Assembly: GCF_001620065.1 (NCBI RefSeq)
Contig: NZ_LQGV01000002.1
Coordinates: 1 to 64,000 of the forward strand
Direction of reading: 5' to 3'
Length of the DNA stretch: 64,000 bases
From: Microbacterium sp. TNHR37B
Lineage (GTDB): Bacteria > Actinomycetota > Actinomycetes > Actinomycetales > Microbacteriaceae
Each line of letters opens with the position of its first letter. The first letter of the stretch is position 1. The notes beneath the pieces were generated by a model. That model did not search any database, was not told where the DNA came from, and was given only the letters and a program-made list of their open reading frames with translations. Shown one piece after another: positions 16,574 through 40,046 of this stretch. The position numbers were made by a program, and so were the translations under genes.

Positions 16574-16953
16574 ATGACGTTCCTCCACGAAGGACTCTCG
16601 ATCTCCGAGGCCGCTGCGGCAACCGGATTGTCGACTCACACGTTGCGCTACTACGAGCGCGCCGGGCTCATGCTGACGCCTGTCGACCGGGCGTCGTCGA
16701 CACACCGCAGATACAGCACGGCGGACGTCACGTGGGTGCAGTTTCTCACCCGGCTCCGCTCCACGGGCATGCCGATCTCGGCCATACGCAGATACACGGA
16801 GATGGTGCGGGCGGGGGAGTCGTCGGTGGAGGAGCGCCTCGACCTGCTGCTGCGACATCGCGCGGACGTGCTCGCCCAACTCGACGAGATCACGGCGAGT
16901 CTCGCCGCCATCGACCACAAGATCGCCGTCTATCGGCAGAAGGAGACACACGG

Positions 16954-16957
<4 letters not shown>
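16574..16957 (+). CDS. MerR-family transcriptional regulator
   Basis: 127 aa. An N-terminal MerR winged helix (LSISEAAAATGLSTHTLRYYERAGLM, about 8-33) with the usual Arg-Tyr-Tyr-Glu, a second wing around HRRYSTADV, and a C-terminal coiled-coil helix (about 80-120). It has no cysteine in the effector region, so a metal or redox-cluster sensor is unlikely; it resembles regulators of aldo/keto reductases and small-molecule stress genes. It should control its own promoter (19-bp spacer dyad at 16537-16567). Its stop overlaps the start of the aldo/keto reductase (ATGA). Confidence 0.9.
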
Positions 16958-17931
<974 letters not shown>

Positions 17932-35603: not shown

Positions 35604-35750
35604 CAACTACACACCGAGTTCTCAACATCCCCGTTGAGACCCTGGAGCAGGCCGGCAGGAAGCTGGTCCCCTGTGGTGGGTTCCCGTCTCGCACGGTGGC
35701 TTTCTACTGGTGGCCAGTGCTGACGATACCGCGGCATGTCGCGCGTCGAG
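35604..35750 (+). ncRNA. Structured pnp leader, candidate Actino-pnp RNA
   Basis: The pnp leader contains a clear hairpin TCTCAAC (35620-35626)/GTTGAGA (35633-35639) and a following block with the text GGTGGGTTCCCG and GGTGGCTTTCTACTGGTGG near 35675-35712. Its place and layout fit the Actino-pnp motif, a conserved RNA found before pnp in actinobacteria and thought to take part in PNPase feedback control. The assignment is from position and remembered features, not a covariance search. Confidence 0.6.
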
Positions 35751-35828
35751 ATCTGCCTGTTCCTGCTCCTTCGCACGATCTCGTGCGCGAAACGCGCGTG
35801 CGAGTCTAAACAAAGAAGGAGAGACCTC

Positions 35829-38111
35829 TTGGAAGGTCCTGAAATCACCGCCGCCGAAGCCGTCCTCGACAACGGACGCTTCGGCACCCGCACCATCCGG
35901 TTCGAAACCGGCCGGCTGGCCCAGCAGGCGCAGGGCGCCGTGGCCGCCTACCTCGACGAAGAGACGATGCTCCTGTCGGCCACCAGCGCCGGCAAGCACC
36001 CGCGCGAAGGGTTCGACTTCTTCCCGCTGACCGTCGACGTCGAGGAGCGCTCCTACGCCGCCGGCAAGATCCCTGGCTCGTTCTTCCGCCGCGAGGGGCG
36101 TCCCTCCACCGAGGCGATCCTCGTCTGCCGCCTGATCGATCGCCCGCTGCGCCCGTCGTTCGTCGACGGACTCCGCAACGAGGTCCAGATCGTCGTCACC
36201 GTGCTCTCGATCGCCCCCGGCGAGTTCTACGACGCCCTCGCGATCAACGCCGCGTCGCTGTCGACCCAGATCTCCGGCCTGCCGTTCTCCGGCCCCATCG
36301 CCGGTGTGCGTCTCGCGCTCATCCCGGGCCACGGCGAGCACGCCGACCAGTGGGTCGCGTTCCCGACCGTGACCCAGCTCGAGGAGGCCGTGTTCGACCT
36401 CATCGTCGCCGGTCGCGTGCTGCCTGACGGCGACGTCGCGATCATGATGGTCGAGGCCGAGGCCACCGAGCACAGCTGGAACCTCATCAAGGCTGGCGCC
36501 GTCAAGCCCAGCGAAGAGATCGTCGCCCAGGGCCTCGAGGCCGCCAAGCCCTTCATCAAGGAGCTGGTTGCGGCTCAGAACGTCGTGGCGAACACCGCCG
36601 CGAAGGAGATCCAGCCCTACCCGGTCTTCCCCGCCTACAGCCAGGAGGTCTACGACTTCGTCGCGGGCCGTGCGTACGACCAGCTCGTGCCGGTGTACCA
36701 GATCGCCGACAAGCAGGAGCGCCAGAACGCCGACGACGCCATCAAGGAGGCCGTCAAGGCCGAGCTGCTGGCCGCCGTCGAGGCGGGGGAGCTCCCCGCC
36801 GTGGCGACGTTGGAGTTCTCCGCCGCGTACAAGTCGGTCACGAAGCTCATCGTCCGCAGCCGCATCCTCACCGAGGGTGTGCGTATCGACGGTCGTGGCC
36901 TGGCCGACATCCGACCGCTCGACGCGGAGGTCCAGGTCATCCCGCGCGTCCACGGCTCGGCGATCTTCCAGCGTGGCGAGACCCAGATCCTGGGCGTCAC
37001 CACGCTCAACATGCTCAAGATGGAGCAGCAGATCGACTCGCTGTCGCCGGTGACGAGCAAGCGCTACATGCACCACTACAACTTCCCGCCCTACTCGACC
37101 GGTGAGACCGGTCGCGTGGGGTCGCCGAAGCGTCGCGAGATCGGGCACGGCTTCCTCGCCGAGCGTGCGCTCGTGCCGGTGCTGCCCAGCCGCGAGGAGT
37201 TCCCCTACGCCATCCGTCAGGTCTCGGAGGCTCTCGGCTCCAACGGCTCGACGTCGATGGGCTCCGTCTGCGCATCCACCCTGTCGCTGCTGAACGCGGG
37301 TGTGCCGCTGCGCGCTCCCGTCGCCGGTATCGCGATGGGCCTCGTGTCCGACCAGGTCGACGGCCAGACCCGCTACGCGGCGCTCACCGACATCCTGGGC
37401 GCCGAGGACGCGCTGGGCGACATGGACTTCAAGGTCGCCGGAACGAGTGAGTTCGTCACGGCGATCCAGCTCGACACCAAGCTCGACGGCATCCCGTCGT
37501 CGGTGCTCTCGGCCGCGCTGACCCAGGCCAAGGAAGCGCGCCTCACGATCCTGAACGTCCTGAACGCCGCGATCGACGGTCCCGACGAGATGGCTCCCAC
37601 CGCGCCGCGCGTGATCAGCGTCCAGATCCCCGTCGACAAGATCGGTGAGCTCATCGGGCCCAAGGGCAAGACGATCAACGCGATCCAGGACGAGACGGGC
37701 GCGCAGATCTCCATCGAGGAGGACGGCACCGTCTACATCGGCGCGACCGACGGTCCTTCGGCCGAGGCCGCCCGTGCACAGGTCAACGCGATCGCCAACC
37801 CCACCAACCCGGAGGTCGGCGAGCAGTTCCTGGGCACCGTCGTGAAGATCGCCACGTTCGGCGCGTTCATCTCGCTCCTTCCCGGCAAGGACGGCCTGCT
37901 GCACGTCAGCGAGGTCCGCAAGCTCGCCGGCGGCAAGCGCGTCGAGAACGTCGAGGACGTGCTCGGTGTCGGACAGAAGCTGCTCGTGCGCATCACGAAG
38001 ATCGACGACCGCGGCAAGCTGTCGCTGGAGCCGGTGCTCGAGGAGGCTGCCGACCAGGAAGGCTCCGCCGCCGCGAGCGAAGGCCCCGGAGACGCGCCCG
38101 CCGAAGGCTGA
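35829..38111 (+). CDS. pnp: Polyribonucleotide nucleotidyltransferase
   Basis: PNPase: phosphorolytic 3'-to-5' exoribonuclease, also able to add tails. 760 aa from the TTG at 35829 ([16 protein letters not shown]), chosen because AAGGAGAG lies 10 nt upstream and the family starts here; the frame is open 30 codons further up without support. Two RNase PH domains (first about 15-150, second about 330-560 with [19 protein letters not shown]), a KH domain ([20 protein letters not shown], about 603-622) and an S1 domain (about 665-740: [28 protein letters not shown]). A structured leader precedes it. Confidence 0.97.
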
Positions 38112-38125
38112 GTCTCCCGCTGACC

Positions 38126-38159
38126 GATGCCCGTCCCTCCTCTGTGAGGGGCGGGCATC
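38126..38159 (+). terminator. Terminator of pnp
   Basis: GATGCCCGTCCCTC (38126-38139) pairs with GAGGGGCGGGCATC (38146-38159), one wobble, 6-nt loop. The GATGCCCG core is shared with the infB-rbfA repeat. Confidence 0.75.
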
Positions 38160-38350
38160 CGTCGTCCGGGGCAACCCAAAGCGTTATGGAATGTTTACCG
38201 CCCGTTCGCCGCAATGAGCGGAAGCCTCACGCACCTGGCCTACTCTCGGAGGTAACGCATCCGGGGATGCGTGAACATCCGGGATTCCGCGGCTCGTCGG
38301 GCATCTCGCGCGTACCACGGGTCTCCACGAGGACGAAGGGGGTGCGCGAT

Positions 38351-39370
38351 ATGGGCTTCTTCGGAGCAGGGTCTACACCTGCTGTCACGGCGCCGTCCGC
38401 CGCGCACCCATCCGCGCCCATCCCCGTTCAGGGCCCGGGTATCGGCCACGGTCTGCGTGTTCCGCTCGGTGAGAGCGGCCTCGACGTCTTTCCGCTCTTC
38501 CTCGGCGGGAGCGAGTTCGGCTGGCATGTCGACTCCGGTGCCGCACATGAGATCCTCGACGCCTACGCCGAACGCGGAGGGAACGCGCTCAACACGGCCG
38601 ACGGCTACAGTTCCGGCCGCAGTGAGCACATCATCGGGCAATGGATGAGCACGCGTGCGGTGCGCGACGACGTCGTGCTGGGGGTCCGCGTCGGCACGGA
38701 TCCCGACCACCCCGGCCTCGGCCCTGTCAACCTCATCCGGTCGGTCGAGGCGTCGCTGACGAGGCTGCAGACCGATCGCATCGATCTGCTCTACCTCGAC
38801 GCCACGTCGGATTCGGTCACGCGCCTGGAGGACACGCTCGCGACCGCGGAGTGGCTCGTCGAATCCGGGAAGGTCCGCTCGATCGGCTCGTTCGGTCACA
38901 CGGCGTCACAGCTCGTGGAGGCGCGCATCATGTCGTCTGCGGGCTATCCGCGGATGACGGTGCTCGACGTCCCGTACAACATCCTGCGCACCCGCGAGTT
39001 CGACGGCGACCTGCGACTGGTCGCCGGTGCCCAGGGGATCGCCGTCACCTCCTCGCAACCCCTCGAGCACGGATACCTCACCGGCGCCCATCGCTCGCGA
39101 GAGCGCGTCGGCAGTTCCGTGCGGGGCGTGCAGTTGGCCGCCGCGATGAACCGGCGAGGGACGCGGACACTCCGCGTCCTCGACCGCATCGGCGAGGAGC
39201 TCTCGGTTCCTCCGGCAGCGGTGGCCATCGCGTGGCTCCTTGCTCAACGCGTGATCGTCGCCCCCATCGTGAACGTCTTCGCCGTCGCGCACGTCGAGGA
39301 GATGATGCAGGGGGTCGGCGTGCGCCTCAGTCGCACCCACTTGGCGGAGATCGCGCGCGCATCGGAGTGA
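38351..39370 (+). CDS. Aldo/keto-reductase-fold protein with degenerate active site
   Basis: 339 aa. Clear AKR barrel: ILDAYAERGGNALNTADGYSSGRSEHIIGQW, LTRLQTDRIDLLYLDATSD, and a C-terminal VPPAAVAIAWLLAQRVIVAPIVNV. Against the intact reductase at 16954, the catalytic Asp is Asn81, Lys is Arg113 and His is Asp150; only Tyr86 stays. It is therefore probably not an active reductase. The first 45 residues are a low-complexity Ala/Pro extension. The ATG at 38351 (MGFFGAG) is chosen; an open frame begins earlier. It follows pnp where other actinobacteria have an M16 peptidase. Confidence 0.82.
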   Translation: MGFFGAGSTPAVTAPSAAHPSAPIPVQGPGIGHGLRVPLGESGLDVFPLFLGGSEFGWHVDSGAAHEILDAYAERGGNALNTADGYSSGRSEHIIGQWMSTRAVRDDVVLGVRVGTDPDHPGLGPVNLIRSVEASLTRLQTDRIDLLYLDATSDSVTRLEDTLATAEWLVESGKVRSIGSFGHTASQLVEARIMSSAGYPRMTVLDVPYNILRTREFDGDLRLVAGAQGIAVTSSQPLEHGYLTGAHRSRERVGSSVRGVQLAAAMNRRGTRTLRVLDRIGEELSVPPAAVAIAWLLAQRVIVAPIVNVFAVAHVEEMMQGVGVRLSRTHLAEIARASE

Positions 39371-39446: not shown

Positions 39447-40046
39447 GTGACGCGCTATCTCTATCTGGTGCGCCATGGCGAACACCTCGACGCCGAGCAC
39501 GGCCTCGAAGACGGACCCCTGTCACCACGCGGTCGGCGGCAGGCCGAGCTGCTGGCCGACCGCCTGTCTGCGGTGCCATTGTCCGCCGTGCGTCACTCGC
39601 CACTCGAACGCGCGGCCGAGACGGCTCGCGCGGTCGCGCACCGTCTTCCGTCGGTCTCGCCGGAGCCGTCGGCGCTCCTGTTCGACTGCGTTCCGACGGC
39701 GATGACCCCCGACACCCCCGGCGTCTACGAGCCGTTCTTCGGTGGAGTGACCGAGGCGGAGTCAGAGGCGGGGGCCGCTCAGATGGCCGACGCGGTCGAC
39801 GAGTTCCTCGTGCGCAAGTGGAGCGGCCACGAACTTCTCATCACGCACAACTTCGTCATCGCCTGGTTCGTGCGGGAGGTGCTCGACGCGCCGGCGTGGC
39901 GGTGGCTCACCCTGACCCAGGCCCACTGCGGCCTGACGGTGCTGTCCCAACGCCCCGGCCGCCCCTGGACGGTCGTCTCGCACAACGACCTCGCACATCT
40001 TCCGATGGAGTTGCGCACCGGGCTCCACGAGACTCCCTTGGTCTGA
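39447..40046 (+). CDS. Histidine phosphatase (phosphoglycerate mutase-like)
   Basis: 199 aa. The RHG signature with the phosphorylated His is in YLVRHGEHLDAEHG (about 6-19); DGPLSPRGRRQAELLADRL, SPLERAAETARAVA (second Arg) and LLITHNFVIAWFV (second His) complete the active site. The substrate can be a sugar phosphate or a phosphoprotein; it cannot be set from sequence. It ends 3 bp before the APH-type kinase gene, so the two form one transcript. Confidence 0.88.
   Translation: MTRYLYLVRHGEHLDAEHGLEDGPLSPRGRRQAELLADRLSAVPLSAVRHSPLERAAETARAVAHRLPSVSPEPSALLFDCVPTAMTPDTPGVYEPFFGGVTEAESEAGAAQMADAVDEFLVRKWSGHELLITHNFVIAWFVREVLDAPAWRWLTLTQAHCGLTVLSQRPGRPWTVVSHNDLAHLPMELRTGLHETPLV

Follow-up and report, generated by a model that had tools for sequence, protein, structure and literature searches.

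What becomes of a reductase that no longer has the residues needed for reduction? The window analysed here, the first 64,000 nt of contig NZ_LQGV01000002.1 from Microbacterium sp. TNHR37B, encodes behind the pnp gene a protein (P0001) with an aldo/keto reductase (AKR) fold, in which three of the four catalytic residues have been replaced. Annotation from Pfam alone would name it an aldo/keto reductase, which is misleading. We find that P0001 descends from a reductase and has been kept across the genus, with its catalytic residues and most of its cofactor residues replaced by a conserved polar set. A literature search, mostly of open-access papers, turned up among the matches listed no study of this protein and none of an AKR pseudoenzyme from bacteria.

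A complete frame and a conserved fold

The reading frame, described as complete in a first-pass annotation of the sequence, is indeed open up to its stop codon (Table 1). A longer version starting at 38144 (408 aa) is disfavored: homologues align with the Met at 38351, and the added stretch contains the hairpin, the conserved block and the -10-like site considered below. Residues 49-337 match the Pfam Aldo_ket_red profile (PF00248, E 8e-45). The structure model has a mean pLDDT of 90.6, with residues 1-15 below 50, and in this prediction the AKR fold is kept. The nearest match is DepB of Rhizobium leguminosarum (AKR18, PDB 7utf), which is the best hit both in a sequence comparison with solved structures (E 7e-31) and in a structural comparison using Foldseek and VIA-align (Z 40.1, rmsd 1.5 over 288 residues), although VIA-align re-examined Foldseek's own matches and does not exclude other folds. 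The two proteins are 28% identical and share the same (beta/alpha)8 barrel, with a TM-score of ~0.8. Barrel and PF00248 profile together place P0001 in the AKR superfamily, the Z of 40.1 being the highest against AKR structures. None of the seven NCBIfam AKR families listed passes its curated cut-off for P0001; the best, NF049922, scores 68 bits where 550 are needed.

Table 1. Features of the P0001 locus in window coordinates. Genus counts are for 127 distinct Microbacterium orthologues; intact refers to 79 relatives from other genera that have the catalytic tetrad.
Feature	Position	Strand	Remarks
pnp, polyribonucleotide nucleotidyltransferase, neighbor	35736..38111	+	Pfam RNase_PH, PNPase, KH, S1
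Hairpin behind pnp stop	38126..38159	+	8-bp perfect outer arms; terminator-like, without T run; read from sequence
Conserved upstream block AAAGCGTTATGGAATGTTTACC	38178..38199	+	in 102/126 upstream regions
TACTCT, -10-like hexamer	38241..38246	+	TAnnnT near this place in 89/90 distinct block-bearing regions (count without chance control)
Stem-loop ACGCATC-CGGG-GATGCGT before gene	38255..38272	+	arms change together in relatives
P0001, AKR-fold protein without catalytic tetrad	38351..39370	+	339 aa; open frame ending in stop; Pfam, model
N-terminal extension, residues 1-37	38351..38461	+	mostly low-confidence: pLDDT blocks 40, 50, 59 (residues 1-30)
Motif HPSAPIPVQG, residues 19-28	38405..38434	+	H19 P20 S21 in 57/57 genus rows
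Glu55 codon, new invariant	38513..38515	+	127/127; Val in 63/79 intact
Asn81 codon, catalytic Asp place	38591..38593	+	genus: His 118, Asn 4, Lys 4, Thr 1
Tyr86 codon, catalytic Tyr place	38606..38608	+	genus: Tyr 69, Phe 55, Asp 2, Ser 1
Arg113 codon, catalytic Lys place	38687..38689	+	genus: Arg 123, Lys 4
Asp150 codon, catalytic His place	38798..38800	+	genus: Asp 127
Asp206 codon, nicotinamide-Gln place	38966..38968	+	Asp in 123/127 (55/57 rows); Gln in 59/79 intact
Ser235 codon, nicotinamide-stacking aromatic place	39053..39055	+	Ser in 127/127; Tyr 37, Arg 35 of 79 intact
His240 codon, new invariant	39068..39070	+	127/127; His in 6/79 intact
Asn308 codon, new invariant	39272..39274	+	127/127; Ser in 69/79 intact
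Histidine phosphatase family gene, downstream neighbor	39447..40046	+	Pfam His_Phos_1

Loss of the catalytic tetrad throughout Microbacterium

Functional AKRs have an Asp-Tyr-Lys-His (DYKH) tetrad. The translation of P0001 confirms the reported replacements, with Asn81, Tyr86, Arg113 and Asp150 at the four places, and P0001 lacks the conserved catalytic motif of its family. The second reductase in the window (ORF 16732-17931), to which it had been compared, is intact, and its Asp53, Tyr58, Lys83 and His126 are correctly numbered if counting begins at an internal Met (MKTIHLG).

Close homologues with the normal tetrad, which would point to a change in one strain only, were not found within the genus: DYKH occurs in none of the 127 distinct Microbacterium orthologues, and a single-strain change is ruled out. 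These orthologues were drawn from 146 loci (57 + 9 + 80), of which the 80 are the best of 289 matching loci, a choice that favors close relatives. The records of these 80 are titled Microbacterium, except for four with a higher-rank name only and two that name other genera. The latter two (L185 and L206, titled Stenotrophomonas maltophilia and Planococcus) have a Microbacterium-like pnp locus and are probably contaminated or wrongly named.

Of the residues at the three replaced places, whose conservation the first-pass annotation suggested checking, Arg113 and Asp150 are conserved but Asn81 is not; it is a minority state of P0001 in a genus that mostly has His there (Table 1). Since position 113 is Arg or Lys and position 150 is Asp in all 127 orthologues, the replacements are no alignment slip.

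Close orthologues (full-length or contig-cut matches at 59-100% identity) occur in 57 of 59 Microbacterium genomes. G043 has only a very diverged copy (37-38% identity, end branch 2.41), and G057 has only AKR matches of 32-34% identity, none of them behind pnp; the gene is therefore dispensable. The G043 copy (L058) was left out of the genus column counts and of the set of 127, and L055, which is cut by a contig end, was left out of one sequence set (A1).

Elsewhere in Microbacteriaceae, DYKH is present at the four places in 79 of the 87 relatives that were aligned from other genera. For this family set we took the best-scoring of the 158 genomes that had a match, giving 88 loci of which 87 were aligned. 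We call the 79 relatives intact; because the tetrad itself defines this set, the uniformity of its tetrad columns follows from the selection. L096 has DYKD when aligned pairwise but DYKH in the multiple alignment. The multiple alignment has 149 rows, after removal of L063, whose extended frame contains a stop, and of the repeat L064 and near-repeat L083. A quick tree was built from 148 rows, without L062, and a careful tree from 57 of the 149. The quick tree omits the four tetrad columns and places all 58 genus rows, G043 included, in one group (SH-aLRT 91); the 17 genus rows used in the careful tree also form one group (100/99).

Replacement of most cofactor contacts

In DepB the tetrad is Asp48, Tyr53, Lys81 and His122, and the contacts with NADPH were assigned by modelling and mutants. 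That report (PMC9427786) gives Trp206, Gln178, Ser152 and Asn153 as orienting the nicotinamide, and Lys217, Arg290 and Gln294 as lying near the 2'-phosphate. By pairwise sequence alignment these seven residues correspond, in the order given, to positions 235, 206, 181, 182, 246, 310 and 314 of P0001; Lys81 was placed via the family alignment because the pairwise alignment shifts it. At these places P0001 has Ser235, Asp206, Phe181, Gly182, Ala246, Phe310 and His314. Compared with DepB, as far as its contacts are given there and mapped by sequence, P0001 has thus replaced the residues that orient the nicotinamide and those near the 2'-phosphate in addition to three of the four tetrad residues.

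The genus as a whole has followed the same course. Position 181 is Phe, Ile, Ala, Tyr or His among the 127 orthologues (Phe 22, His 10, Tyr 9 and others in the 57 rows of close orthologues) and Ser in 72 of the 79 intact relatives, and position 182 is Gly in 116/127 (50 of the 57 rows), compared with Asn in 35 and Asp in 33 of the 79. Position 246 is mixed in the 57 rows (Arg 26, Glu 11, Ala 6), with Lys in 57 of the intact relatives. Aromatic residues occupy position 310 (Tyr 62 and Phe 55 of 127; Phe 36 and Tyr 18 of the 57 rows), where 59 intact relatives have Ser, and position 314 is His in 118/127 (53/57 rows), compared with Gln in 69/79. The family residues are kept in few orthologues: Gln314 and Ser310 in 6/127 each, Lys113 in 4/127. 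With most of the DepB-type cofactor residues replaced, binding of NAD(P)H by P0001 is unlikely. The first-pass annotation had considered the tetrad and missed that, judging from sequence, most of the NAD(P)H contacts are gone as well.

A new set of conserved residues

Glu55, Asp150, Ser235, His240 and Asn308 are invariant in the 127 orthologues and Asp206 is present in 123, and all six are rare in intact relatives. Because the intact relatives come from many genera and the Microbacterium sequences from one, levels of conservation cannot be compared directly between the two sets, and we used only residues that have switched. A column was called class-specific if at least 90% of the genus and at most 10% of the intact relatives have the one residue, cut-offs that are our own choice. 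Of 300 columns, 18 are class-specific, including those of Glu55, His81, Arg113, Asp150, Asp206, Pro208, Ser235, His240, Asn308 and His314. These columns are enriched at the barrel mouth (6/39, compared with 12/261 elsewhere, p 0.019). They are also enriched at the cofactor and substrate-pocket places assigned for DepB in PMC9427786 (7/18 versus 11/282, p 2e-5), and an enrichment carried by four columns persists if the tetrad is omitted (4/14 versus 11/282, p 0.003).

The term pseudoenzyme, previously applied to P0001, fits as regards the reductase reaction, for which the tetrad is lost, but it understates the change. Most of the cofactor contacts have disappeared and another set of polar residues has become fixed, and the pocket was therefore rebuilt, not merely broken. 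Refitted in this way, it may still carry out a different reaction.

Some of the new positions vary. His81 is missing in 9/127 orthologues (Asn, Lys or Thr), including P0001, and position 236 is Gln rather than His in 38/127; a catalytic His81 therefore cannot be general. Two of the 127 have Ser206 instead of Asp together with Asp at residue 86, which in sequence looks like an acid that has moved.

Purifying selection

Over 205 genus pairs the median dN/dS (Nei-Gojobori, pairs at least 80% identical) is 0.123; for the intact relatives it is 0.130 (35 usable of 39 pairs). Because of overlap between the pairs and partial saturation of dS, these values serve as a comparison and not as precise estimates. 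No internal stops occur in the 57 close orthologues. That the gene is kept and has not decayed, as initially proposed, is supported by a dN/dS about as low as that of intact relatives and by its presence in 57 of 59 genomes. By this measure, the median of 0.123 over 205 overlapping pairs, P0001 is a protein kept by selection.

The place behind pnp

The proposed linkage to pnp extends across genomes. The gene lies behind pnp, on the same strand, in 57/57 genus loci, with 163-481 bp between the aligned parts, and pnp is also upstream in all of the best 80 of 289 further loci. The histidine phosphatase gene is downstream in 55 of the 57 genus loci, and in L003 and L055 the contig ends at the gene. 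Among the family loci, pnp is upstream in 47/87 (45 of the 79 intact) within the flank taken (1.5 or 2.5 kb), and at least one of pnp, the histidine phosphatase gene and dapB is near the gene in 62/87. The place behind pnp is common to intact relatives and was probably inherited; it therefore gives no special support to a role connected with RNA. In G057, pnp is followed directly by the histidine phosphatase gene. In G043, two opposite-strand genes (L273, 3060-5443), which we take to be CorC/hemolysin-like, stand between pnp and the diverged reductase copy.

It had also been suggested, half correctly, that other actinobacteria have an M16 peptidase at this place. M16 C-domain matches do occur at the locus in G114 (pnp, reductase, M16) and G137 (reductase, M16), but there the reductase precedes M16. 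At E 0.001 the M16 C-domain profile (PF05193) matches nothing in the genome of the window (G000), G043, G057 or G091, and a partial match in G008 lies elsewhere in the genome.

The upstream region

Several conserved features lie between pnp and the gene (Table 1). The upstream block was searched from a required CGTTA and accepted with at least 14 of its 22 bases, in 126 upstream regions (57 from the genus and 69 of the 80 further loci); 24 of these lack it at this threshold, and 90 distinct regions were kept. At the place of the hexamer, 60 of the 90 have TACCCT. The longest upstream stems exceed those of shuffled sequences (mean 5.98 versus 4.80), and their arms covary. A related block precedes the intact genes L071, L073 and L080.

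Scans for sigma-70 promoter and terminator consensus between 38050 and 38450 found nothing, and for that reason it is the conservation of these features on which a promoter-like reading is based. No -35 element was recognized in the upstream region, and the window holds no Rfam element at gathering scores. The region nevertheless points to a transcription start belonging to the gene, with 38178-38272 as the candidate promoter region. Even with up to 3 mismatches allowed, the genome contains the block just once, and a regulon sharing it was rejected on this basis.

The N-terminal extension

An extension of 45 residues had been attributed to the pseudoenzyme. The extension exists, but it comprises ~37 residues before the barrel and is not peculiar to P0001. 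Motifs of the HPSAPIP type occur in the intact relatives L065-L069, with less strict versions in further relatives, among them L070, L071, L073 and L080. The motif is therefore not tied to the catalytic loss, and the extension was ruled out as a feature of the pseudoenzyme. The HPSAPIP coding pattern has one copy in the genome, and a reversed control pattern likewise occurs once.

What is P0001?

The ancestor of the genus would have had an ordinary NAD(P)H-dependent reductase behind pnp, and hydride chemistry and cofactor binding would have been lost early in Microbacterium. The mouth of the barrel would have been refitted, with Glu55, His/Asn81, Arg113, Asp150, Asp206, Ser235, His240 and Asn308 making up a different polar site. 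We infer that the new residues form one pocket. Its ligand would be small and either charged or hydrophilic, bound without NAD(P)H, and the pocket may also act on this ligand through acid-base chemistry that involves no redox step. Ligand binding or chemistry in this pocket would then be what selection keeps. On balance we lean toward this reading, that of a reductase refitted into a putative non-redox small-molecule site. A more specific version, which we regard as speculative and rather doubtful, is that an NADPH reductase became an enzyme of another class, its pocket having lost the cofactor and gained Glu, His, Arg, Asp, Asp and His for putative non-redox acid-base or metal-assisted chemistry. 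A second Microbacteriaceae group would have arrived at a similar set (Arg113, Glu/Gln150, Gly182, Glu206, His240 and Asn308), independently or through a shared older event.

Could P0001 instead be a true pseudoenzyme, a protein partner or regulator that has no substrate? Its invariant residues would then stabilize the fold or an interface, and HPSAPIP would be a contact. This is conceivable although on the unlikely side: a protein under purifying selection that has lost its tetrad and most cofactor residues is what one would see, H19, P20 and S21 are invariant in the 57 rows and lie in a low-confidence tail, and Arg113 could form a buried salt bridge with Asp150 or Asp206. However, class-specific residues gather at the barrel mouth, and the motif is shared with intact relatives and is not tied to the loss. 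The protein is improbable as a reductase that still works by means of an altered tetrad and some unusual cofactor. The modelled fold is unchanged and Tyr86 is kept in 69/127 orthologues, but the other 58 have Phe, Asp or Ser in its place, and most of the residues that orient the nicotinamide or approach the 2'-phosphate are gone.

A regulator linked to PNPase and RNA decay, in line with the RNA-linked role first proposed, has little more to recommend it than its constant place on the same strand behind pnp in the genus and in the best 80 further loci. Intact DYKH relatives occupy that place too (pnp upstream in 45/79), the N-terminal motif predates the loss, and the gene has its own upstream region, with the hairpin, the conserved block and the -10-like hexamer between it and pnp, all of which makes the idea weak. 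Moreover, G057 has pnp without the gene there, and in G043 two opposite-strand genes intervene; we consider such a role quite improbable. Slow decay of an unneeded gene is the least credible explanation. The diverged copy in G043 and the missing copy in G057 are what it would predict, but the low dN/dS, the 57 close orthologues without internal stops and the columns that are invariant across the genus rows all argue against it.

P0001 can be set beside known systems. GCLM, the modifier subunit of glutamate-cysteine ligase, is a eukaryotic regulatory subunit with an AKR fold and without catalysis. The beta subunit of Kv channels (AKR6) has the same fold as P0001 (Z 39.2). It is an AKR used in regulation, with reductase activity and with information stored in the nicotinamide cofactor, as described in PMC12043502; compared with the protein so described, P0001 is without the residues for reductase activity and for a nicotinamide cofactor. 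A further comparison is with intact pnp-linked reductases such as L065, L071 and L089, which occupy the same gene place at 46-49% identity to P0001. L065 and L071 have a similar N-terminal motif, and none was seen in L089. Unlike P0001, intact relatives have DYKH and mostly Ser181, Asn/Asp182 and Gln206, with Thr181, Ser182 and Gln206 in L089. Loss of a catalytic site is common. Here a cofactor pocket has a genus-wide, invariant new charged set in a gene at a fixed place, and because intact relatives within the family stand at that place too, the two make a clean before-and-after pair. Such a pair allows one to ask how a reductase barrel gains another use.

Tetrad losses elsewhere in Microbacteriaceae

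Other family rows also depart from DYKH. L091 and L092 (VHRE) and L095 (VHRQ) share with Microbacterium Arg113, Gly182, His240, Asn308 and, in the form of Glu, an acidic residue at 206, and have Glu or Gln at 150. L087 (DAKD) shares Glu55, Asp150, Gly182 and His240. In the careful tree, built without 17 pocket columns, these four branch with intact rows (100/99) and are joined to each other weakly (96/51). Both free trees, quick and careful, need four changes for tetrad loss, and a forced common origin of Microbacterium with the four is not rejected (p-AU 0.244). The refit may have happened twice independently or in one older event. The further non-DYKH rows read DVTR (L149) and DFKH (L128, L130 and L137).
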